The notes under the pieces are model-generated. The model saw only the letters and a program-made list of their open reading frames with translations, searched no databases and had not been told where the DNA came from. A stretch of 64,000 nt of DNA from Tubulanus polymorphus (lineage: Eukaryota > Nemertea > Palaeonemertea > Tubulaniformes > Tubulanidae), in the NCBI RefSeq assembly GCF_964204645.1, contig NC_134034.1, positions 12,529,962 through 12,593,961 on the forward strand, written 5' to 3'. Below are positions 41,640-58,257 of the stretch, in pieces; within the stretch, counting starts at the first letter, position 1, and every line of letters starts with the position of its first letter. The position numbers and the translations under genes were made by a program.

Positions 41640-44600
41640 AAAGAGGGATGATGTCCCTGGTTCAAACCCTTCTGATGCTGAATAGAGGATGAAGAGGGAT
41701 GTCCAAGGTTCAAACCCTCCTGATGCTGAATAGAGGATGTACAGGGGTGTCCCTGGTTCAAACCCGGTCTATTGGTACTGATTCAGAGTGTTCCTGATGC
41801 TAAATAGAGGATGTACTGGCGTGTACCGGCCGTACGGTGCTGCCGCTAGGCTCATCGTTAGCGGGTTTTTCATACACTAACTTTAGTCAACTCTGGCAAT
41901 CGACGTGCTCTCCAGTAATACTCCGTAACCCTAGCTTGCCAGAGTTGACTAACGTTAGTGTATGAAAATCCCGCTAACAATGAGCATAGCGGCAGCACCG
42001 TACGGTGAAATGTTGATATCTTAAAAAAAATAATTACTGGCACTTATTCAAGGTGGTCCTGATGCTGAATAGAGGATGTACAGGGGTGTCCCGAGTTCGA
42101 ACCCAGTGATTACTGATACTGATTCTGAGTGTTCCTGATGTTTAGAGTTGTCATGCATAGATGGCTAATAACGACATGTTCGCCATCTATTGGAATTTCG
42201 CTGAACTGTCAAATTTCTAGAATTGACAATGGCAATCATTTTTGCTGAACCATATTTCACATGCGCCATCTACCAGAATTAAAGAGAACTAGTTATTTGA
42301 AAAAACGGATAAATAATGTGTCTCAGGTTCGAACCCACTCCCAGGTACTGACTCAGAGTGATTGATACTCAATTCCAGTGTTATATTCCAGTGCTGATAC
42401 TGATTCAGAGTTGTCCTGATGCTGAATGGGGGATGTACAGGGGTGTCCGGGTTCAAACCCATCAATTACTGTGATTCAGTGTGGTCGTGATGGATAAAGG
42501 ATGAACAGGGGTGTCCCAGGTTCGAACACAGTAATTACTGATACTGGTTCAGAGTGGTACTGATGCTGAATAGAGGATGTACAGGGGTGTCCTGGGTTCA
42601 AACCCAGTAATTACTGATACTGATTCAGAGTGGTCCTGATGCTGTATAGAGGATGTACAGGGGTGTACGGGTTCGAAACCAGCGCAAACTGACTGATTCA
42701 GTGGTCCTGATGCTGTATAGAGGATGTACGGGGGTGTCCCGGGTTCAAACCCAGTAATTACTGATACTGATTCAGAGTGGTCCTGATGCTGTATAGAGGA
42801 TGTACAGGGGTGTACGGGTTCGAAACCAGCGCAAACTGACTGATTCAGTGGTCCTGATGCTGTATAGAGGATGTACGGGGGTGTCCCGGGTTCAAACCCA
42901 GTAATTACTGATACTGATTCAGAGTGGTCCTGATGCTGTATAGAGGATGTACAGGGGTGTACGGGTTCGAAACCAGCGCAAACTGACTGATTCAGTGGTC
43001 CTGATGCTGTATAGAGGATGTACGGGGGTGTCCCGGGTTCAAACCCAGTAATTACTGATACTGATTCAGAGTGGTCCTGATGCTGTATAGAGGATGTACA
43101 GGGGTGTCCGGGTTCTAACCCAGTAATTACTGATACAGTGATCCAGAGTGGTCCTGATGCTGAATAGATGATGTACAGGGATGTCCCGGGTTCGAACCCA
43201 GCGTAAACTGACTGATTCAGAGTGGTCCTGATGCTGTATAGAAGATGTGTAGGGGTATCCTGGGTTCGAAACCAGTAATTACTAATACTGATTCCGAGTG
43301 TTCCTGAAGCTGTATATAGGATGTACAGGCCGGGTGTCACGGGTACGAAACCAGTACTGACACTGATTCAGAGCGGTCCTGATACTGGATAGATGATGTA
43401 CAGGGTGTCCCGGGTTCGGACCCAGTAATTACTGACAGTGATTCAGAGTGGTACTGATGATGCCGAGTAGACTGGAGGATGTACAGAGGTGTCCCGGGTT
43501 CGAAACCAGTATATTGGTACTGACATGATGCTGATTAGAGGATGTACAGGGCGCGTCACGGCCGTACGGTGCTGCCGCTATGCTCATCGTTAGCGGGATT
43601 TTCGTACACTAACGTATATCAACTCTGGCAATCGACGTGCTTTCCAGTTATACTCCGTAACCCTAGCTTGCCAGAGTTGATTTACGTTAGTGTATGAAAA
43701 TCCCGCTAAAAATGAGCATAGCGGCAGCACCGTACGGTAAAATGTTGATATCTTAACAAAAGTAATTAGTAGTACTGATTCAGAGTAGTCCTGATGCTGA
43801 ATTGAGGATGAAAAGGGGTGTCCCTGGTTCGAAACCGGTATATTGGTACTGACATGATGCTGATTAGAGGATGTACAGGGTGCATCCCGGCCGTACGGTG
43901 CTGCCTCTATGCTCATCGTTAGCGGGATTTTCATACACTAGTGTCAGTCAACTCTGGCAATCGACGTGCTGTCCAGTAATACTCCGTAACCCTCGCTTGC
44001 CAGAGTTGACTAACGTTAGTGTATAAAAATCCCGCTAACAATGAGCATAGCGGCAGCACCATACGGTAAAATGTTGATATCTTAAAAGTAATTACTAGTA
44101 CTGATTCAGAGTGGTCCTGATGCTGAATTGAGGATGAACAGGGGCCGGGTACCCAGTAATTACTGATACTGATTCAGAGAGGTCCTGATGCTGAATAGAG
44201 GATGTACAGGGGCCCGGGTACCCAGTAATTACTGATACTGATTCAGAGTGGTCCTGATGCTGAATAGAGGATGTACAGGAACCCGGGTACCCAGTTATTA
44301 CTGATACTGATTCAGATTGGTCCTGGTGCTGTTTATTGGATGCACAGATGTGTGGGTTTATTATGCATAGATTGCTAATAACGACATGTTCGCCATCTAT
44401 TGGAATTTCGCTGAACTGTCAAATTTCTGGAATTTACAATGGCATTAATCTTTGTTGAACCATATTTCACATGCGCCATCTATCGGAAGTAAAGAAAACT
44501 CATGCTTCGAAAAAATTGTATGGGGGTGTCCCATTACTGATACTGATTCATAGCGGTGCTGATTCTGAGTAGAGGGATGTACAGGGGTGTCTTGGGTTCG

Positions 44601-44640: not shown

Positions 44641-44756
44641 AATCATTAAAATTTTACTAGAAATTTTTATAAAATTTATTCATCGAAATATTAATATATT
44701 TACAATATTTTTCTGCATACACATACACATACAGATCATTCAGACACTAAAACACT

Positions 44757-45215
44757 CTACTATGCTATATTCTATCTCCTGAGAGGGTTTAGGCACTACC
44801 CTGACCCCTGAGAGGGTTTAGGCACTACCCTGACCTCTCAGGGGGTGAGGCACTACGCTGACCCCTGAGAGGGTTTAGGCACTACCCTGACCTATCAGGG
44901 GGGTGAGGCACTACGCTGACCCCTGAGAGGGTTTAGGCACTACCCTGACCTCTCAGGGAGGTGAGGCACTACCCTGACCCCTGAGAGGGTTTAGGCACTA
45001 CCCTGACCTCTCAGGGGGTGAGGCACTACCCTGACCCCTGAGAGGGTTTAGGCACTACCCTGTCCCCTGAGAGGGTTTAGGCACTACCCTGATCTCTCAG
45101 AGGGTGAGGCACTACCCTGTCCTCTCAGAGGGTGAGAGGTACTACCCTGTCCCCTGAGGGGTTGAGTCACTACCCTGACCCCCGAGAGGGTGAGGCACAA
45201 CCCTGTCCCCCATTA
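44757..45215. repeat. 28-29 bp minisatellite
   Basis: About 16 units alternating CTGAGAGGGTTTAGGCACTA and CTCAGGGGGTGAGGCACTAC. It lies just 3' of the CCDC34 stop codon on the minus strand, so it may be transcribed in that gene's 3' UTR. Confidence 0.92.
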
Positions 45216-45365
45216 AGGGAGTCTCTACTATATAGAAATAAATTACTATTTGAAAGCAGCTGAAATGCGAAAGGCACGAGTTTGGCTGGTTAGTAACGAG
45301 ACAGTCCTCTATATCCATGGAAACTGATACAGTTTTTCATTGGTCCGTCCGGGGGTTTGAACCGA

Positions 45366-48300
45366 TCAATAATATTTACTCGGATTCCAGCGTTTATTTT
45401 TCGGGTTTACCGGTTTCGTTTTCTTCCTAGCGACATGTTGTTTGGGTACGTGTACCGGTTGCCATGGTATCGGATTGTAGTAACTAGGCGTCGGGTAGGC
45501 CGTGCGATCGTAATAACCTGAAACAGATACCAAAACATCTGAGAATTCTTCAATTCAGTTCAGGGATAGGTAGCTGCTGCATCCTTAGACCTGAGGCACT
45601 ATTACTGGGAAGCTTCCTCTATGTAGGACCGACCGTGTCTTAATCCGCCCCTGATTTTTCAAAGGGTTTTAAAGGAAAAAAATATCCACAATCTGTGGTA
45701 GCCAGACACCAGGGTGCGATCTAAGCACTTGTCCGATTGCCCGGGACAAGTATATTCTCATCAGGGCAAGTAGGTTATCATTTATCACTTGTCCCCCGGG
45801 CTAGTGCAATTTTATGTCACAAAGCTTTTTTCCCACTCGATACAACGGACGATAGTGTCACCAATCGGACTGCCTGTGTAGGGCAAGTAGCTTTTGGACG
45901 AGGGGGCAAGCGAAATTTCAAATATGCTTCGTGGATTTCATTCCTTAGATCGGACACGAGACACGCGCTGGTAAATGGGAACACTGCGCTATAAACCGGT
46001 TTGAAAGTCTAGGCAGTCGCCTGGCGTGTACGCACTACAATAAAACCAATTTGAAAGGGAAACCGGTTAATAATCGACTGAATTATCGTTCAATTCGAAC
46101 CTAGATAAATTTGCGTTAACGTTGTGTAAATTGTCGGACGAAGTCGTTTTCAATGTAGCCATTATTAAATATAAATACTCATACACTACATTAACGGTGC
46201 AATAATGTGTGTGCGTTTTTTTTTCATTCATTCATTCGTTGTAATATTGATTTTTGTTTCCGTACTGTCCCGGCGTCAACGTTGTTGTTGTTGCTAGCCG
46301 CGGTAACGTACGCGCGCTTTAAAAACCGCACCGAACCGACGTAGCAACCAGATATCAACAACAAACACCGCGCAAAAAATAACGTAATAGTCACGGGTGA
46401 CTCGGTCGGAGAGTGCAGAGATTACGGATTACGGCAGCTGATTACTGATTAGTCATAGAGGATTAACACATTTTTATCACGGTTTAGGTACGTTTTCTCA
46501 AATTGATGACCTATTTCATAGTTTATTTCGAAATAAAGCGAAATCTAAATAGCTATTTGAACTCTTCGTTGCTTTTCGTATTTCAGCTTCGAAACGTGAA
46601 TTCGAAACGTGAATATTTTATTTCGCAGAACAAATAACGTATTGGAACTAGAATGGAGAACGAATCGGAAATACCGGACTCGCAACAAACCGAGGAACAA
46701 CAGGAAACTACTCCAGAAGAAACTACGACCGAAACTACTCAAGAAGTAGAGGCCGCGGATGAGCCCATCTCCGAAACTGGCCAACAACCTGAAGCTCCGG
46801 GAGAACCTACTTCGGAAATTACACAAGAACAGGAGACTGCAGGAGAACCGTCTGCTTCTGAAACTACGCAAGAACCAGCAGCAGAACCGGAAGACTCACA
46901 AGAAGTACCCGAAGAGGATGGTAATTCTCGTGAGGCCTCGCAAACAGTGGAAGAAGAAACCCCCGCGGAATCTCAGGAAAACGAGCAACAATCGCAAGAC
47001 GTCGTCGCCGGAGACGAAGAAAGTGAATCGCCGTCTGCCGCAAGGAGAGAAACGTCGGCAAAATCGGAGAAAACTGTTTCAATAGCCGAGGAAGAGGTGA
47101 CAGGTCAAGAGGTCATAGCTGATAGTCAGGAGGTCACAGATGGAGGCCAGGATGTTACCGATGGAGGTCAGGAGGTTTCTCGGGATATTACCGATGGAGC
47201 TCAAGAGGTTGCCGCTGATGACGAAGGTGCAGGTTCTAGACCGGTTACAGGAGGTACCCAGCAGTCACGACAAAGCACGGCCAAATCGGGTAAAAACAGA
47301 AGAACCGACAAAGCGCCCTCTAGTCGCTGACGTCGTCACTATTCTAACGATTAACATCCGTCTGCTATTGATTTTCAGGACGTACGTTCAGCACGCGGTC
47401 ACCGAGCAGCGTAGCGTTCACCGACGTTAAAGACGATCCGTTCAGGGTGAAAGCCGATCCGCCGAAAACGTTCGACGCGTGTTACCTGGCCAACGCGCTC
47501 GGTAACGTGCTCACCGAGGCGCTCGCCGAGGTCGCCGATAAACGACCTTGGGATCCGGTGGAGTACCTGGCGATGTGGTTGTACAAATACGCGGAAACTC
47601 GCGACCAGAAAATTCAGGTTAGGCTAAATTGAAATAATACCTTGTTTCTCCTAATCAGCAAGGTCACTTTCATAAACCGCAACAAAATTTGTAATCGGTT
47701 CATTTCTATAACTGCCGGGTCTGTTATTGTCAGCTTGATCATAATTTTGATCATAAAATAATGTACAGGGGCCAGTTCCACAGTTGTGAGTTTGTTACCT
47801 CTGAGTTAAAAATCAGTTCATTTCCTCCAATGAGTTAACTCCCGAGTCAAATCCTAACTCACAACGGTGGAACTGGGTCCAGGGTAGATAGAAACAACTA
47901 CTTTTAAGCTCAGTAGAAATGAGAAACAAGGTACCAATTTTAGTAGCCTAACGACTAAATGACTTCGAGATCGATATCTTTGAAATACATCGACGGTTAT
48001 AAACGATGTATTTTCAGGAAGCCGAAGAACTGGAAGAACGACAAGAGCTGGAGCGAGAGCAACGAGAACAACAGGAACGTAAACAACAACTTAAAGAGGA
48101 ACTGAGCGTTCAAAGGGAACAAGATAAACAAATAGCTAAACAAAAACAGGAAGAACAAGAGAGAGAACAACAATTACAGTAAGTTACCGTGGAAACCCGC
48201 TTGATTCGGGATGGTTTGATCCTAGGGCTGCAATCGCTCATAAGTTGGTTACAGATATCCCCCGGATAAATACCATAGTAACAATGAACTTCTAATTGTC

Positions 48301-51300
48301 ACTGTGTGAACTGTCCACTGGTTAACTCTAACCAACTTTAGAGCAACTGCAGCCCCTGATTTTGATCCAATGTTTAATCCAGAATTCCCATAAACCAGAC
48401 AAATTTCTTTGTTCCTAATGATCCGTGTTAAGTAGGTTCTACTATAGAACAATGCGGTCTAATAGACACTGGAGTCTGGATCCATCCATTACTGTCGATA
48501 TTTTCAGGGAGGCTGCAGCAGGTTTAGCAGATGTGACCGGAGCTGAAAGAGCAGCAGCAGCAGCAGCTGAAGGAGGAGAACCAGCTCCTGAACAGGACGA
48601 TCCTACAGCTGTAACTACGACGCAAACTGAATTAGACTGGAAGGTTTTACATCGAGCCGCCGCTGATCCAGGTTTAACTCTTACTGTTATATGTCGCTGT
48701 TAATTATACTCTAAAACCTAACTCAGGTCGACTAAGATCCGATCAGATCGTTGGATCTTTAAGGCAGTCAAATCCGTGATTTTTAATTCGGGAACAGCTT
48801 TGATTACGACCGATCGTAAGTTGAATCGCGAGGATAGAACCAAGTTCTATTCTCTACAACCCGATCAGATCACCGTAGCTAATGCATCACATTGCCCGGG
48901 ACAAGTAATATTCTCATCAGGGCAAGTAGGTTATCATTATCACTTGTCCATCGGGCGAGTGTAATTTCATGTCAGAAAACTTTTTTCCCACTCGATACAA
49001 CAGATGATAGTGCCACCAATCGGACTGCCTGTGAAGGGCAAGTAGCTTTTGGACGGGGCAAACGAAATTTCAGATATGCTTGCCCCCCGGGCAAGTGGCT
49101 TTCATTCCCTAAATCGAACCCTGATGACCTAGTCGTAGCCTGCCTGAGTGCTCTTTAAGAAACCTGCGACGAACGAATCGACAATCAGCGTTCTGTTCTT
49201 ACGACAATCTTGTTTTAATTGTATTACAGACAGCGATATGACGGCGTTATTGAATCAAGGCTACGATTTAACGACGCGTGATTCAAATGATAAAACAGTT
49301 CGTGAAATCGCTATTGATAAACAAATACAAACGCATGTAGACGCTATCGGTGAGTTATTTACTTCAATTTATCAGTGCGGCTACTCTTAATTCACTCACT
49401 TTTCTCCTGACTATTCCATGCATGTTGTTTTCCCTGATTTTCATGCTTTTTTCCATAAAATTCCCAGACTATTCTCAGACTTTTTTAAGAAGAGAAAATT
49501 CCGTGACTTGGCCCTGGACCCAGTTGCACAGTCATGACTTAAGTCCAAAAGTGGTCTTAAATCTTTAGACTGGTCTTAAGTTGTTAGATTGGCTGTAGAT
49601 TGGCTGTCTTAGACTGGACTTTAGTCTAAGCCTTGACTATGCAACCGGCCCCTGAGTTCTAGCTTTTTTTAAACAAAATTCTGTGACTTTTTAAAGAAAA
49701 AAAAAATTCCGACTTTCCCCCCGATTTTTAGCTTTTTCACAAAATTCCACAATATTACTCGATTTTCAAGTTAGTGGCGCCACCCTGCTTCCTGTTTCTA
49801 AATAATCATGGGAAGAATTCTTTCGGTTGAAATTCTTAAATATTTTCCCGCTGTTTTTAGACGCGCATGTTTGCGGTTTATTCGAGAAAGGAGATATGGA
49901 TCAAATACAGCGCCTCCTATTGAGAGGATATGCGCAATTCCCGGAGCTCGGACTGAAATACGGAACAGAAGGGGAAGGACTGAACGAAGAGGCGTTCCAA
50001 TTCTGGAAAATCATTCCGGACTTACAGGTAATGCCACCTAGCTGTGTCAAATCGTAGATCATTTCAAAGATGGACGCTTCCTTAAATCCCCCCTATGACA
50101 TCATAGCTTATCGCGGTACGATTTCTTTTTTCGTCGACTAGCAAAAAATAGCGTCCGCCCACAAAGCGGTCCTCGATGGCGACCTACGAGAATTACAACA
50201 ACAATTAGATCGCAAACAACTGGCAGGCGGCGTCGACGAGAAAGGGTTAACGCTGTTACATAAAGCCATTATCAACGAGAAAATGGAGCTAATCGATTAT
50301 CTGATAACAACGTTCCCGGAGATATTAGAGCTGACCGATCCGGTGAGTGTTTTGAGATTCATAGTTTTTCGAGAGACGGACGCTCCACGTCGGATTCAAC
50401 CGGTTTTTATCATCTATCGTTACAGTCTAAGAGAACAGCGATGCACTACGCGTACGCCTCGACTAACGATGGTATAGTCGAACTACTCAAATCAAACAAC
50501 GCCTCACTAACTACTCTAGATCTGGTAAGAATTGAAAAAAATATCAACGAAAACTAGTTAAATTCGCCATGGTAACGCAACAATGCGTATATTTAATAAT
50601 CGGTATCGTCGTTCAGGGAAATCACGAGCCTCAGTTTTACGCGACGAACAAAGAACTTATACAACGATCGTTACTAACGGTAACCGAGCAGACGGAAGAA
50701 GCGGCTGTAGCAGCAGACGGACAATCCGAAGAACCCGCGGCGATGGAGGATGGAAATGCTGATGCTGCTGCTGATGCTGTTACTGACGGAGCTGCTGCTG
50801 ATGTCGAGGGTATTTCATCCTGTTTCTTTCATCAAATCAGAAACTGTCAGAATTTGAATTCCATAGAAATGATATATGAGTTTAACTAATTTGAATTGCA
50901 GGGCAGCAGGCAGAGGAGGTTGGAGCCGGACTGGAGGAGGTTGGAGCCGGACAGGAGGAGGTTGGAGCCGGGCAGGAGGAGGTTGGAGCCGGGCAGGTAG
51001 ACCAACAGGAAGAGGCAGCCGAATAAATAAATATCATTATTTATGCATTAATTATTTATATCTTTACTAATTAGTTCATAGCAATAAACAATGTTATTGG
51101 ACGTTATTATTTGTGACTTTTTTACTTCTGATACATGGACGCTAAACACTAACAGTGAAATCGAAGCAAAAACAATGAAATGAATCTTGAAAACCAAATT
51201 GATACAAAATACACTCAAAACTGAGGCAAAAATACTCTTGAAATGGACCCTAACCTCATGATCGAAGCAAAAATACTTTTGAAATGGACCCTAAACTCGA

Positions 51301-53341
51301 AATTGAAGCAAAAATACTCTTGAAATGGAACCTCAAGTGAAGCACATAATCAAAGCCACTTTTTCTACCAATTAAGGAATGCAGTGTATGAACTGATCAC
51401 ACACTTACCGGTCAGTTTACCAGACGTATACCCGTAACTGTTGAACGCTGTTTTCGGACGATCTTTCGATAATTTCAGCCACTTTTCAAACGCGGCCGTC
51501 GCTTCCTCTTTCTTACGTTGCTGCTCTTCTAACGTTTTCTGTTTTTTCTCATCTTCCTCTTGTTTCTGTTTCAGTTCGGCTTCTTTTTTTTGTCTGAACG
51601 AAAAAAAATGTTTAATTTTTTCAATTTTTCGTAAATTCATCCTCTCGGAAAAGTGATTTTCAGATAAGTGGCGCCACCGTGCTCCCCGTTACCTCGACCA
51701 TTCTTTATATTTCTGTTTCGATTTCTCTTCGACGTGTCGTTTCTCTTCGGTTTTCATTTCCTCCGCGACTTTTTGTTTCTGTTTCTCGAGTTTCGTTTTC
51801 GTTTGTTCCTGGATGTTTTTCTGATGAAGCCACTCTTTACGTTTCTCCTCGGCTTGTTTCAGTTTGCGCTGTTTTTCCGTTTCCAGGCGCTGTTTCTCTT
51901 CCTGTTCGCGTTTCAGTTTCTCTCGTTCTTGCGTTTTTTTCTTGCGTTCGAGTCGGGCTTTTTCGACGAGCCATTTCTCCCACGACGACAGCTTTTTGAT
52001 TTTTGCCTCCTCATCATCATCATCATCATCAGCAGCAGCAGTTTCACTGAATCATTAAAATAAACATGATTATAATCTTACATATTACTTATAGAAAGAA
52101 TACCCCAGATTATCCATATATGAACCTGGGCCCGGTTCACCAGTTGAGAGTTAGAGTTAACTCGGAGTTAAAGTTAGTTCATTTCAGTGAGTTAACTCAG
52201 AGTCAAATCTTAACTCAGAACTATGGAACTGGGTCCTGATCTATTTATAAAAAGGCCTCGCCTCTGGGGCCAGTTGTTGCTCTGTCATGGCTTAGACTCA
52301 AGACCAGCCTAAGGCCAACTTATTTCAATAGCCAATCTAACAACTTAAGACCAGTCAAACACCATTTTGGTTCTATAGCCAATCTAATAATTTAAAACCA
52401 GTATAAGCTCATTTTGGTTCTATAACCAATCTAACTTAAGACCAGTCTAAGCTCATTTTGGTTTTACAGCTAATCTAACAACTTAAGACCAGGCAGTCTA
52501 AGACCATCATAGCTCAATTTGGTTCAATAGCCAACTTAACAACTTGAGACCAGTGATAAAACTTAAGACTTTTGGAATTACTTTGCAGCCAGGTCAAACC
52601 CGCTCTAAACCTTGAACTTCAAACAACTTTATGACTAAAGCAGCTTCTTCGCCCTACCTCCCTCTCCCCCACTCAACTCTCCTTTCACCTCTCACCTACC
52701 CTCCCCCAGACCTTTTTACTCACCTCTCCCTTCCCAGGATTATCTACTCACCTCCCCTATCTAACCACTCCACCTCCAACCCTTAATTCTCACCTATCAA
52801 ACGCTTTTATTCCGTTGTTATTCAATTCTTTATTCTGTTTATCGTCGAGTTCAGTTTTCTTGTCGTCGTTTTTCTCCTCGTTCCGCTCATCCTCATTGTT
52901 GCGGCCGTCGACGGTTACGCCGCCGATATTCTCTATATCTGCGTCGTAATCGTCGAGGCTGTCGTGATCGAGAACGGAGATCAAAGATTTCGTCGAATCG
53001 CCTGAAAATTAAATTAAATAAACTTTGAATTCTTTCACTCAAGCCTAAATTGGTTCTAATTCTTCCTCAGAAAATTTGCTTCATTTTTAGATATTTTTTT
53101 CTTAACTTTATATTTCAAATTAAGTTCCAAAAAAAATCCTATTCTAATTTTTGGGTCAAAAAAAGACAAGAATCCTAGATCTGCCCAGAATAATGAACTT
53201 GAACTTCAATTCAATTATATTGTTGATACCTGTTGAATCTAGTGATAATGAATGACTGCTTGAACTGATAATTCGAGTGCTCTCATGAACCGGTGACGGG
53301 TGTTTAACAATAGCGGTCACTGGACGAGGTCTCGCACTCAT
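45366..53341 (-). CDS. CCDC34: Coiled-coil domain-containing protein 34
   Basis: Five coding exons on the minus strand: 53341-53230, 53001-52794, 52046-51693, 51593-51409, 45517-45366. They sum to 1011 nt (336 aa) with matching phases. The middle exons encode a charged coiled coil with family marks WEKWLVEKARLERK, HQKNIQEQ and KYKEWS. Exon 4 ends FNSYGYTSGKLTG. Exon 5 continues YYDRTAYPTPSYYNPIPWQP; human CCDC34 has SYGYANGKLTG followed by a similar NPIPWKP segment, so the distant last exon is well supported. A non-coding leader probably precedes it (acceptor at 53375, donor near 53703). Human CCDC34 is linked to sperm flagella and ciliary function. The last intron, 51408-45518, holds a complete gene on the other strand. 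Confidence 0.92.
45714..45955 (+). repeat. Dispersed repeat around GCCCGGGACAAG, copy 2 of 3
   Basis: Same family as 32206-32466 and 48888-49125. It lies in the long CCDC34 intron, upstream of the nested gene. Confidence 0.75.
46653..51026 (+). CDS. Dpy-30 motif, coiled-coil and ankyrin-like repeat protein (nested gene)
   Basis: Ten coding exons: 46653-47289, 47379-47617, 48018-48178, 48508-48671, 49230-49349, 49861-50027, 50142-50342, 50426-50524, 50617-50809, 50902-51026. They sum to 2106 nt (701 aa). Residues 1-212 are acidic, rich in E/T/Q and probably disordered. Near 247-285 is a Dpy-30 motif (YLANALGNVLTEALAEV, then RPWDPVEYLAMWLYKY). Residues about 293-346 form an E/Q/R coiled coil. 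Ankyrin-like helices follow (KVLHRAAADPDSDMTALL, LTLLHKAIINEKMELIDYL, AMHYAYASTNDGIVELL). The tail has four EEVGAGQ-type 21-bp repeats. Dpy-30 motifs dimerise and occur in COMPASS and in axonemal proteins; ankyrin plus coiled coil suggests an axonemal scaffold, as inference. A leader exon may end at 46488, with acceptor at 46626. A poly(A) signal lies at 51083-51088. The donor after exon 4 (GTTTAA) is weak. Confidence 0.88.
47768..47889. mobile_element. Palindromic MITE family 2 in the nested gene
   Basis: Starts GGGGCCAGTTCCACAGTTGT and ends GGTGGAACTGGGTCCAGGG, with inner arms GAGTTAAAAATCAG and GAGTTAACTCCCGAG. It lies in intron 2 of the Dpy-30 gene. Confidence 0.75.
48888..49125 (+). repeat. 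Dispersed repeat around GCCCGGGACAAG, copy 3 of 3
   Basis: Same family as 32206-32466 and 45714-45955. It lies in intron 4 of the nested Dpy-30 gene. Confidence 0.75.
49510..49653. mobile_element. Palindromic MITE family 3 in the nested gene
   Basis: Starts GGCCCTGGACCCAGTTGCAC and ends GACTATGCAACCGGCCCC, with complementary ACTTAAGTCC and GGACTTTAGTC arms. Same family as 22048-22188. Confidence 0.7.
51083..51088 (+). terminator. Candidate polyadenylation signal of the nested Dpy-30 gene
   Basis: AATAAA lies 57 bases after the stop codon. Another AATAAA overlaps the stop itself (about 51022-51027). Either would end the transcript before CCDC34 exon 4 (51409-51593), so mature mRNAs need not overlap. 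Confidence 0.5.
52128..52236. mobile_element. Palindromic MITE family 2 in CCDC34 intron 2
   Basis: Starts GGGCCCGGTTCACCAGTTG and ends CTATGGAACTGGGTCC. The central arms are TTAACTCGGAGTTAA and TTAACTCAGAGTCAA. Same family as 47768-47889. Confidence 0.7.
52266..52595. mobile_element. MITE family 3 copy with internal tandem expansion
   Basis: The family 3 end GGGCCAGTTGTTGCTCTGTC is followed by about five copies of a unit of about 55 bp containing AACTTAAGACCAGTCTAAG and CATTTTGGTTCTATAGCC. It ends TTTGCAGCCAGG. The repeat unit is the element's own inner arm. Confidence 0.65.
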
Positions 53342-54507
53342 TGTTGTTTTGTTGTCTTCTCGGGTCCGGACAAACTGGAAAAAAAATATTTTCTAATAAG
53401 TAAAAATATTCGTTCTGCACAGCAGTGACCAATCTGATAAAAAGTTGATAAACTGTTAAATACACTTTTGGATAAAGTTTCGCACAATTGAATAAGATTA
53501 AATTCGATTATTTTTGAACTCTTTTGAAAGCGCCATAAAACGGAAAAAACGCAGACTATTTTCTCGACAAAAAAACTAACCGGTTTTAAGTGGATTATTC
53601 GGTAATTTTGAAGCGCTGTCAACTCGAACAATCACTTCACGAGATTAACCACATTAAATATTACATCAGAGATTATTCATTCTAGAATTAAACGAGTTCT
53701 TACCGGTTAAAACGTGTCAATACTTGTTTATAAAACAACTCAACGGTCGCGTAACGGTCGCAGTTTGTTTACTTCCGCCCGGATGTGCCTCGGCTTGTCC
53801 GACTCCGGTTCCTAAGCCGAATCCTTATCCGAAATGACTCCGAGTCCGATTTCCGAATAGTCCGATATCATGCAACGGAAAACGGGGAACCGGACAAACT
53901 CAGTAAAATACGGAAAAAGACTTAGGAATTCCCGTGCGGGCTATGACTCCATCCGGCAATTCGATATTTCGATTTTTGATTGAGGAAAATGATTCTGCAA
54001 TTTATTTGGCATGAATAAGTTTGAATAAGACACCCACACAATAGGCCCCCCTGAACCCCGAGCTTAGGTCTAAATTAGCAGATACTAAATACAACAAACA
54101 AGCACTATAGACCTGTGAGGCCGCCCTTCCGCTCAGCCCACCAGTCATTCGAATCACAGAAAAAATTACTACCTGCAATTAATTGACTTTTTCTTCATTA
54201 TCGAATGAAGTTTTATTGTAAAATGCACTTAACAAGTTTTGGTTTACACATATTTTTCATTAAAAAGGCAGTTTATGCAAGAAGTTTGGGTTCCGCGACG
54301 GAACAAGTTTTATAACTGCTCATCAAAACACAACACATAATACTACAAGACACAAAGATAGAGCACCATCAACTATTACAGAATCATTAATACAATACGA
54401 TAAAACTAACACGTAATACATGATATAATCATCCGAATACAGTTGTAAAATATGACTCAACCCTGGAAAGAGACGAACTGGAAACCCTAGTTAATATAAA
54501 CCATCAG

Positions 54508-55854: not shown

Positions 55855-58257
55855 TCACAGTTTATATTTGAATTTATCTTTACTCTGACGTAACGAGAGT
55901 AACATCTGAACACGTGTGGAATCCGGTTCCGTGTTGTATTGTTCCAATAATCCGATCGCCGATAGCAACATCGGGTCGTCCGTTCGTAGGAATGGATTAT
56001 ATTGTTTTTCTTCCCAAATACTCGACGGAACCTGAAAACATACAACATACAACATACAACATTCAACATACAACATACAACTCTTAATTTCATGTTTCAA
56101 GTTTATAAAGATCTGAAGGCTTACCGTGGAGAGTCGTTTTTCTCTTTGAGTTTTCACCCAGTCATGTTTCTCCTAAAAGAAAACCAAAGATATCAAAATT
56201 TTACCGTAAAATTATAACCTTTATTACGCCACCGTTGGAACTGATGACAAATAACGAATTTGACATTATGAAGAATTATATTTTCATTGAGAATTTGAGT
56301 TAGATTTCAATGAATTTGCGCAGACCTGAGATCTGACTTATCGAACTGAAAAAAGTATCTCCATTTAGCCATAAATTAGTCATTTATTTATCCTTCACTC
56401 TGTGCATATAGTTCACATACAACCCCGCGCGGTGGCGCTATTTATGATGTTATCTATGACAATCAACACAAGCTCGTATTTGACAAAAAACGGGTCTAAT
56501 TTTTTACAAGGTATAAATTTACCAATCTTGCATAGTGATGATGGACTGATAAAGTGAATTCCTTAAATATCAGAAGAGGCAGAGGAAGAGAGAGAGAAAG
56601 AGAGAGAGAGAAAGAGGGGAGAGAGAGAGGGAGATATGAAACGGTACCTGTAATTTCTGATTATTTGGGTTGATATATCGAGCGAATTCGAGATTATCGA
56701 GAGCGTACTCGTGACCGGGCCACAGTAACGTATCCTCGTGAAGATTCGAGATTCTATCCAGCGATTGTTGCATCGTTGCCGCGGTTTCTTCAAACATTCG
56801 TCCTAAAGTACGAGAAAATAAATCTCCGATTTTCAAATGGAAATTATACGAAGTAACCGATAGCGTCGATCTGATTGTTGACTTACCGCAACCTCCGATG
56901 AATAAATGATCTCCGCAGAATAACGAATTCGGGGCGTTGAAACTCTTGCCGTCGAGTAAATAGGTCACGTGACCGACCGTGTGTCCGGGGGTGAAAATAG
57001 CGGTGAATTTCAATCCGCTGTTCGGAATTAAAATCTCTTCGTTATCGACGACAGATCTGCAAAATATCGAAATTCACAACGATATATCGAGTGACTAAAA
57101 TGAGAATGTTTCGTTTTCGGTCGGAGCAGACGTACTTCGTGACGTCTGGCACGTGGTCGTCCGCGTTACCAACTATCTGTACGTTTCTATATTTAGATTT
57201 GTAGAATTTATTTCCACCGCTGTGATCCCTACAAATACACAATTAATTAGTGATTTCATAGGGGGAAATATAGAGCTGGCCATCTTGTCTATAGACCAAA
57301 TTCGGAATAGGGAGATTTATGGAGGCAGATATTTTTCCTGAAGTGGTCTAGAGATCAAATCACTAGCAGACAATTTGATGATGTAATGGAAAGGGGCTGT
57401 TGTTTTTGTAATTAGGGGGATCTTTAACGGAATCCAGGGTTAAAGGTAATACCAGTATATAAAACTGGCTCCTGGGTTCTTGTAGATGCTATCAAACTTG
57501 ATGATGTCATAGGGAGTTTTGATCTGACAGGACTCGGGGGCAATATGATGAGGTCATACGGGGACTAATGGAGAAAACACTCATTTCTGGATTGAAGCAA
57601 AAATTTGATGATGTCATAGGGGGATGTGACGTACCAGTGTTTATGAGTCGTAAGAACTGTTTGTAAATTCACTTCTTCTTTAGTAAGTATCGGTTGAATG
57701 GCGTCCGGATCAGCGGGGTCAATCAGTACGCCCGACCCGGTTTTCATATCTTTAATTAGATAACAGTAATTATCTAAACTAATCGGTATCGGTAAAATGC
57801 GTAGACCGCCGTCGAAATCCAGCGGTTCAACAACCGAGTGTCCGTTCTCGTATTTCTGGTTGGCTTTAGTAACGTCGCGACGATAATAGAAATATCCCAG
57901 ACGTGTTCGAGTGTAGAAAAAATACCTGAAATATAGAATAGGAAAAACTAATGAGGCCGCGAGGAGGGTTGAGGGCATCATATCGGCTGCTACCCCGGAT
58001 TTCAATCTGTCTCTGTGCATTAGGCCCTTCCCACTCCAGCTAGCAGAACCTACAACCGTCACTAGCCCGAAATGACTAAGCAGTGATGAATGCCCAACAT
58101 TACCCAATTTTCGGAGAGCGTACTAAGGGGGAGCTAGAGCTTGATTAGTGTTTACCTACTATTCATTTCACTTCATGTTTTAGTTAGCCTAGTTAGTAAT
58201 AGTAGTAGCATAGTATATTTACCCTATTTTGAAGAGTGTACTGCCCTGTTTTGCCAT
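55855..58257 (-). CDS. PNKD: PNKD-type metallo-beta-lactamase-fold hydrolase
   Basis: Seven coding exons on the minus strand: 58257-58223, 57925-57635, 57228-57136, 57056-56887, 56802-56648, 56172-56125, 56031-55855. They sum to 969 nt (322 aa). The N-terminus MAKQGSTLFKIG leads into YFFYTRTRLGYFYYRR, as in PNKD, rather than a cytosolic glyoxalase II start. Metal-binding motifs are complete: THKHWDHSGGN, FTPGHTVGH, FCGDHLFIGGCG and LLWPGHEYA. The C-terminus has EKQYNPFLRT, also typical of PNKD. Glyoxalase II-like proteins hydrolyse S-acyl-glutathione; the substrate of PNKD is less certain. An AATAAA follows the TGA stop directly (55849-55854), so the 3' UTR may be very short. It is divergent from AFMID copy 1. 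Confidence 0.93.
56570..56635. repeat. (GA)n-rich tract in PNKD intron
   Basis: GAGAGAGAAAGAGAGAG-type purine tract just after the donor of PNKD exon 5 (pyrimidine-rich on the transcribed strand). Confidence 0.85.

Follow-up and report, generated by a model that had tools for sequence, protein, structure and literature searches.

Nested genes are genes that lie in full within an intron of another gene. According to one survey, nested structures hold 4.3-8.7% of the protein-coding genes in seven vertebrates (PMC8467205), and 2357 nested genes have been described in one ctenophore (PMC8527503). The former survey places the two genes of a simple nested pair on opposite strands in 220 of 296 human and 193 of 248 mouse cases, and describes internal nested genes as typically short and intronless. 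It further states that the expression divergence of nested pairs is not significantly above that of unnested pairs in human and mouse, whereas in Drosophila it is (PMC8467205). Since nesting is common among animal genes, and in mammals usually involves opposite strands, passive nesting is the default, and the best reading, for the pair described below.

Here, a nested pair is described from the palaeonemertean ribbon worm Tubulanus polymorphus. The window, that is, the whole stretch of DNA that was analysed, is 64 kb long and comprises bases 12,529,962-12,593,961 of contig NC_134034.1, in a genome assembly of 268 Mb and 77 contigs. Larger genome sizes were obtained by flow cytometry for animals named T. 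polymorphus, namely 358 Mb for Atlantic and 313 Mb for Pacific material, as given in PMC8468679. Both gene models were rebuilt from the sequence, and a Dpy-30/ankyrin gene of the plus strand was found to sit, with each of its ten coding exons, in the last intron of the minus-strand CCDC34 gene. No overlap exists between coding exons of the two genes, which makes them a nested pair as judged from coding exons, the UTR ends being predicted. The span of the nested coding sequence takes up 74% of the 5891-bp intron, and GT-AG borders were observed at all 13 introns of the two models. As in the nested sets of human, mouse and Drosophila (PMC8467205) and of the ctenophore (PMC8527503), a full gene lies within one intron, on the opposite strand and with no coding-exon overlap. 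The arrangement is well known, and the Tubulanus pair is a new instance of it; our literature search found no work linking CCDC34 to nested genes. We consider this to be a real, ordinary nested pair, in which a full-length CCDC34 is spliced over a 5.9-kb intron bearing an independent plus-strand Dpy-30/ankyrin gene (probability about 0.8). It offers a clean ribbon worm case of a gene with several exons sitting in the intron that separates two conserved coding exons. At the level of sequence, the gene models, their domains and the single CCDC34 locus found are established; the coordinates are collected in Table 1.

Table 1. Features of the CCDC34 host gene and of the nested Dpy-30/ankyrin gene, in window positions.
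Feature	Position	Strand	Remarks
CCDC34 probable 5'UTR intron	53375..53703	-	AACCG|GTAAG ... TTTCCAG|TTTG; placed by sequence inspection
CCDC34 coding exon 1	53230..53341	-	ATG at 53341; first residues MSARPRPVTA same as Lineus longissimus CCDC34-like
CCDC34 coding exon 2	52794..53001	-	GT-AG borders
CCDC34 coding exon 3	51693..52046	-	CCDC34 domain begins here; Pfam match in genome search
CCDC34 coding exon 4	51409..51593	-	end ...SYGYTSGKLT + first base of Gly; donor GTAAGT; Pfam match
CCDC34 last intron	45518..51408	-	5891 bp; houses the opposite-strand gene
CCDC34 coding exon 5	45366..45517	-	YYNPIPW tail + stop; single genome match for tail
Nested probable 5'UTR intron	46488..46586	+	GGTTTAG|GTACGT ... 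TTTCAG|CTTCG; placed by sequence inspection
Nested exon 1	46653..47289	+	acidic low-complexity N-terminus; one DNA match in genome
Nested exon 2	47379..47617	+	Dpy-30 motif, PF05186, residues 248-284
Nested exon 3	48018..48178	+	long helix predicted C-terminal to Dpy-30 motif
Nested exon 4	48508..48671	+	rebuilt model, GT-AG
Nested exon 5	49230..49349	+	rebuilt model, GT-AG
Nested exon 6	49861..50027	+	linker in common with nematode ankyrin module
Nested exon 7	50142..50342	+	ankyrin repeats
Nested exon 8	50426..50524	+	ankyrin repeats
Nested exon 9	50617..50809	+	rebuilt model, GT-AG
Nested exon 10	50902..51026	+	four copies of 21-bp coding repeat + stop
Nested candidate poly(A) signal AATAAA	51083..51088	+	about 320 bp before CCDC34 exon 4

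The five coding exons of CCDC34 join into 1011 nt including the stop codon and encode 336 amino acids. Its introns measure 228, 747, 99 and 5891 bp, and all four have GT-AG borders. The end of exon 4, at its donor, is in phase 1; TTTCAG precedes exon 5, whose first bases are GT. The preliminary description had proposed precisely this join, with one base of a glycine codon at 51409 completed at 45517 by the exon that carries the YYNPIPW tail, and it is supported by the phase, the Pfam match and the C-terminal profile match of the rebuilt model. The translated model belongs to Pfam family PF13904 (CCDC34), which it matched at 119.6 bits (cut-off 35, E=1.5e-34) over the complete profile (1-169 of 169). 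The match covers residues 125-305 and thus extends past residue 287, where exons 4 and 5 join.

Among 5.8 billion proteins, with lengths of about 185-588 aa considered, 75 CCDC34 relatives were identified. The best of these was the CCDC34-like protein of Lineus longissimus, which is 44% identical over the full length of the query. The two proteins have the full-length domain, the N-terminus and the Y/FYNPIPW tail in common. In Tubulanus, another gene fills the last intron; the comparison with Lineus was made at the protein level. Among solved structures, no convincing relative of CCDC34 was identified (best E 0.96).

The assignment of exon 5 was then evaluated with the relatives. When scored against a profile of the 75 proteins, the spliced model reached 316.1 bits, compared to 243.3 for a read-through of the exon 4 donor and 236.9 for a stop at exon 4; the exon 5 tail is therefore worth 73 bits over the read-through form. 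The NPIPW-type tail, joined in frame, is present in Tubulanus CCDC34, and the motif occurs in 67 of the 75 relatives. A C-terminal HMM was built from these 67 proteins, the other eight, which lack the motif, having been dropped. Run against the 3367 reading-frame segments of the window, it matched 45369-45554 on the minus strand with E=1e-18, and the runner-up had E=0.61, which demonstrates that the tail match is not due to chance. When the 75 relatives served as tblastn queries, the starts of 70 matching stretches fell at 45300-45600 (stretches are counted here, not proteins, and two of them come from one protein in at least one case). The BLAST match between the exon 5 tail and the Lineus tail showed 61.5% identity.

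At the scale of the 268-Mb genome, the 50-aa CCDC34 tail gave one match, which is exon 5 itself. The Pfam model gave two matches among the five candidates scored, namely exons 4 and 3 of the same locus, and hence no second CCDC34 copy was found. The preliminary description had also raised the use of another last exon. At the sequence level this candidate was rejected, with one convincing C-terminal HMM match in the window and one genome match for the tail.

The CCDC34 protein of Tubulanus itself was absent from the 75 relatives (5.8 billion proteins, about 185-588 aa), while the nested Tubulanus protein is present in the searched set. The absence can be explained by a public model that is missing, truncated or fused, or by a host gene that is truly damaged. 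The public annotation may be missing or wrong for CCDC34 in T. polymorphus, and the gene merits re-inspection by annotators, as a model that breaks at the long intron loses the conserved tail. Within approximately 870 bp past the CCDC34 stop codon, the sole AATAAA or ATTAAA begins at 44675, on the far side of a 29-bp minisatellite, and we count this against the reading as an ordinary nested pair. The minisatellite extends over 44778-45210, shortly 3' of the stop codon, and holds about 15 copies. A 76-bp repeat array was observed at 42394-43511.

The position of the host intron can also be traced, indirectly, in protein records of other species. The CCDC34 record of Dreissena polymorpha ends in ...SFGYTSGKLTG, exactly at the position of the worm exon 4/5 border, and that of Mytilus edulis ends in ...SFGYTSGKLTGM, one residue beyond it. 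In Argopecten irradians, six additional residues (ISQYPG) are located between KLTG and YHD, at the same border. Gene predictions tend to stop or insert residues in this fashion at exon ends. These three bivalve records were chosen by eye from the 75 relatives, several others of which differ here without marking a border. The breaks point to an intron position that is probably common to the ribbon worm and bivalves, and hence to a host intron that is probably old.

The ten coding exons of the nested gene run from 46653 to 51026 on the plus strand and join into 2106 nt including the stop codon, encoding 701 amino acids, with GT-AG borders at all nine introns. The translation is identical over 701 of 701 residues to the NCBI entry 'uncharacterized protein LOC141912018 [Tubulanus polymorphus]' (P0076). 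The preliminary description had reported a ten-exon opposite-strand gene within a 5.9-kb intron and joined coding lengths of 1011 and 2106 nt; both lengths were reproduced, and the rebuilt models, their 13 GT-AG introns and the identity to the NCBI protein bear out the arrangement. The nine coding introns led us to reject the nested gene as a retrocopy. The probable 5'UTR intron and the AATAAA downstream of the stop codon indicate that the nested transcript likely fits inside the host intron. A further AATAAA, beginning at 51022, is found at the stop codon. With its ten coding exons and its 74% share of the intron, this gene is unlike typical internal nested genes, and we count the number of its exons against ordinary nesting. 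The 21-bp repeat in exon 10 (50913-50997, four copies) encodes EEVGAG(Q/L) repeats.

The nested protein combines two domains, Dpy-30 (PF05186, 6.7e-12, residues 248-284) and Ank_2 (PF12796, 3.9e-10, residues 503-593). Among PDB chains, its Dpy-30 part matched DYDC2 (1.2e-12), DYDC1 (1.5e-12) and, more weakly, 'Flagellar radial spoke protein 2' (5.6e-4), the shared region being the Dpy-30 motif together with the residues that follow it. The DYDC chains are 159-177 aa long and match only the Dpy-30/helix part, whereas the nested protein has ankyrin repeats besides. Single-sequence structure prediction gave a mean pLDDT of 47, with only the helix at about residues 291-350 well predicted and the Dpy-30 helices at 42-65.

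In searches of the 5.8 billion proteins, which reach relatives sharing exact five-residue words at lengths of about 385-1226 aa, the proteins that passed among the best 7995 candidates, and among 3944 candidates in a second search, were the nested protein itself and a protein of the nematode Haemonchus contortus (P0077). Residues 410-640 matched this protein at 282 bits summed over several modules, with a best single BLAST match of 90.9 bits; for comparison, the best ankyrin PDB chain reached 28.2 bits against the whole nested protein. The homology extends beyond generic ankyrin similarity, as matches are also seen in the Dpy-30 motif and in the linker that leads into the repeats. The Dpy-30 motifs are identical at 20 of 47 residues, and one ankyrin module including the linker at 53 of 167. 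The domain order differs, however: Dpy-30 precedes the ankyrin repeats in the nested protein, while in P0077 the ankyrin repeats come before Dpy-30 (1173-1208). The nested protein also has a single ankyrin module where P0077 has several.

Proteins with related domains are known from cilia. In C. elegans, ARCP-1 is described as an ankyrin/DPY-30 ciliary scaffold that localises to cilia and binds a phosphodiesterase, as reported in PMC6953435. Both the nested protein and P0077 resemble ARCP-1 in their domain combination, ARCP-1 being compared here by its domain content. By analogy, P0077 may be the ARCP-1 ortholog and the ribbon worm protein may act like ARCP-1. DPY30 domains act as tethers between proteins and radial spokes in mammalian axonemes (PMC11779644), and a role of the nested protein as a ciliary scaffold is plausible. 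The nested gene further suggests that a spiralian possesses the pairing of ankyrin and Dpy-30 domains known from a nematode ciliary scaffold. As for the host, a review lists CCDC34 with intraflagellar-transport-related genes and links its mutations to malformed sperm flagella (PMC11506864). The preliminary description had linked both families to cilia or flagella; the link stands for CCDC34, while for the nested gene it is plausible.

Following the reading as an ordinary nested pair, we infer that CCDC34 transcription crosses the nested gene, which would be taken out with the last intron by a predicted splice from 51409 to 45517. The nested gene would be read in the opposite direction from its own start region and end at its own poly(A) signal, each gene being transcribed independently. 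In terms of history, an old CCDC34 intron may have received the other gene as DNA, introns included, and not as a retrocopy, this direction of nesting being the presumed one. Neither mRNA has coding exons complementary to those of the other, so that an interaction between the genes would more likely take the form of polymerase collision or of pairing between nuclear pre-mRNAs. The default expectation is that the nesting has little or no regulatory meaning, and the ciliary theme of both genes makes their co-expression plausible.

A different outcome would be that CCDC34 was broken or cut short by the nested gene. It would then read past exon 4, gain KCVISSYTAFLNW before reaching a stop, and leave exon 5 behind as a stranded relic. 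The read-through frame after exon 4 does stop 13 residues on, the Tubulanus CCDC34 is absent from the protein search matches (about 185-588 aa), and the Dreissena and Mytilus records, which stop at the border or one residue past it, show that short forms have been annotated in relatives. Against this, exon 5 retains an open frame, the correct phase, a TTTCAG acceptor and its identity to the Lineus tail; such an intact exon disfavours a relic, which should decay. The tail also has no other copy in the genome, and exon 4 ends at a GTAAGT donor, and we regard a damaged host as quite unlikely. An older origin of the pair concerns its age only and is compatible with ordinary nesting: the arrangement could be ancestral to a larger clade, such as nemerteans or spiralians, and have been kept for long. 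This would be in line with the seemingly old position of the host intron and with the nematode relative of the Dpy-30/ankyrin protein. However, the searches brought up no relative of the nested protein in other spiralians (best 7995 and 3944 candidates; five-residue words, about 385-1226 aa), whereas Lineus and many molluscs were among the relatives found for CCDC34. We consider an ancestral nesting unlikely.

The arrangement could also be functional, with each gene controlling transcription of the other, through convergent interference or shared ciliogenesis elements, such that expression of the two cilium genes changes jointly or in opposite directions. Both proteins have ciliary relatives, and the two genes occupy opposite strands of one stretch. 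Two candidate sites fit the same idea. The sequence GTTGCCATGGTATC at 45458-45471, which we take to be an RFX X-box-like palindrome, lies upstream of the nested gene, in the coding part of CCDC34 exon 5, and TGTTTAC at 53766, presumably a forkhead-like site, is located near the CCDC34 start. Yet the X-box-like site sits on the conserved IPWQP codons, and the protein accounts for it in part. Furthermore, 11 X-box-like sites with at most one mismatch were counted in the 64-kb window, whereas ten first-order Markov sequences contained 0.6 on average, which indicates that such sites are not specific to the CCDC34 locus. The expression data on human and mouse nested pairs in PMC8467205 likewise weigh against mutual control, which we consider very unlikely. 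The most elaborate form of this idea, in which an ARCP-1-type scaffold and a cilium-assembly gene make up a mutually regulated nested unit in ribbon worms and antisense transcription selects the product in each ciliated cell (for example, sperm or sensory), is highly improbable. If the nesting proved to be regulatory, the significance of the locus would rise.

The repeats around the insertion were also inspected. No convincing pair of direct repeats was observed at the two ends of the host intron among the 20 largest of 23 direct families and 25 of 26 inverted pairs. The locus also has two copies of a dispersed repeat of approximately 190 bp, one between CCDC34 exon 5 and the start of the nested gene (45740-45930) and one in intron 4 of the nested gene (48908-49081). 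In a genome search with the first copy, 40 of 511 candidates were scored, and all 40, the query included, showed 91-100% identity. The presence of this element does not prove how the nested gene arrived. In the 64-kb window, no known RNA families, at gathering thresholds, and no tRNAs were reported. Ten of the 117 window frames were scanned for domains, which revealed two possible neighbouring genes: a plus-strand open reading frame with a galactose-binding domain above the cut-off (PF22633, 5243-5779), and a minus-strand one with weak metallo-beta-lactamase similarity below the cut-off (56570-57073). A related repeat was further noted in opposite orientation in intron 5 of the nested gene (49565-49645) and in intron 2 of CCDC34 (52276-52492).
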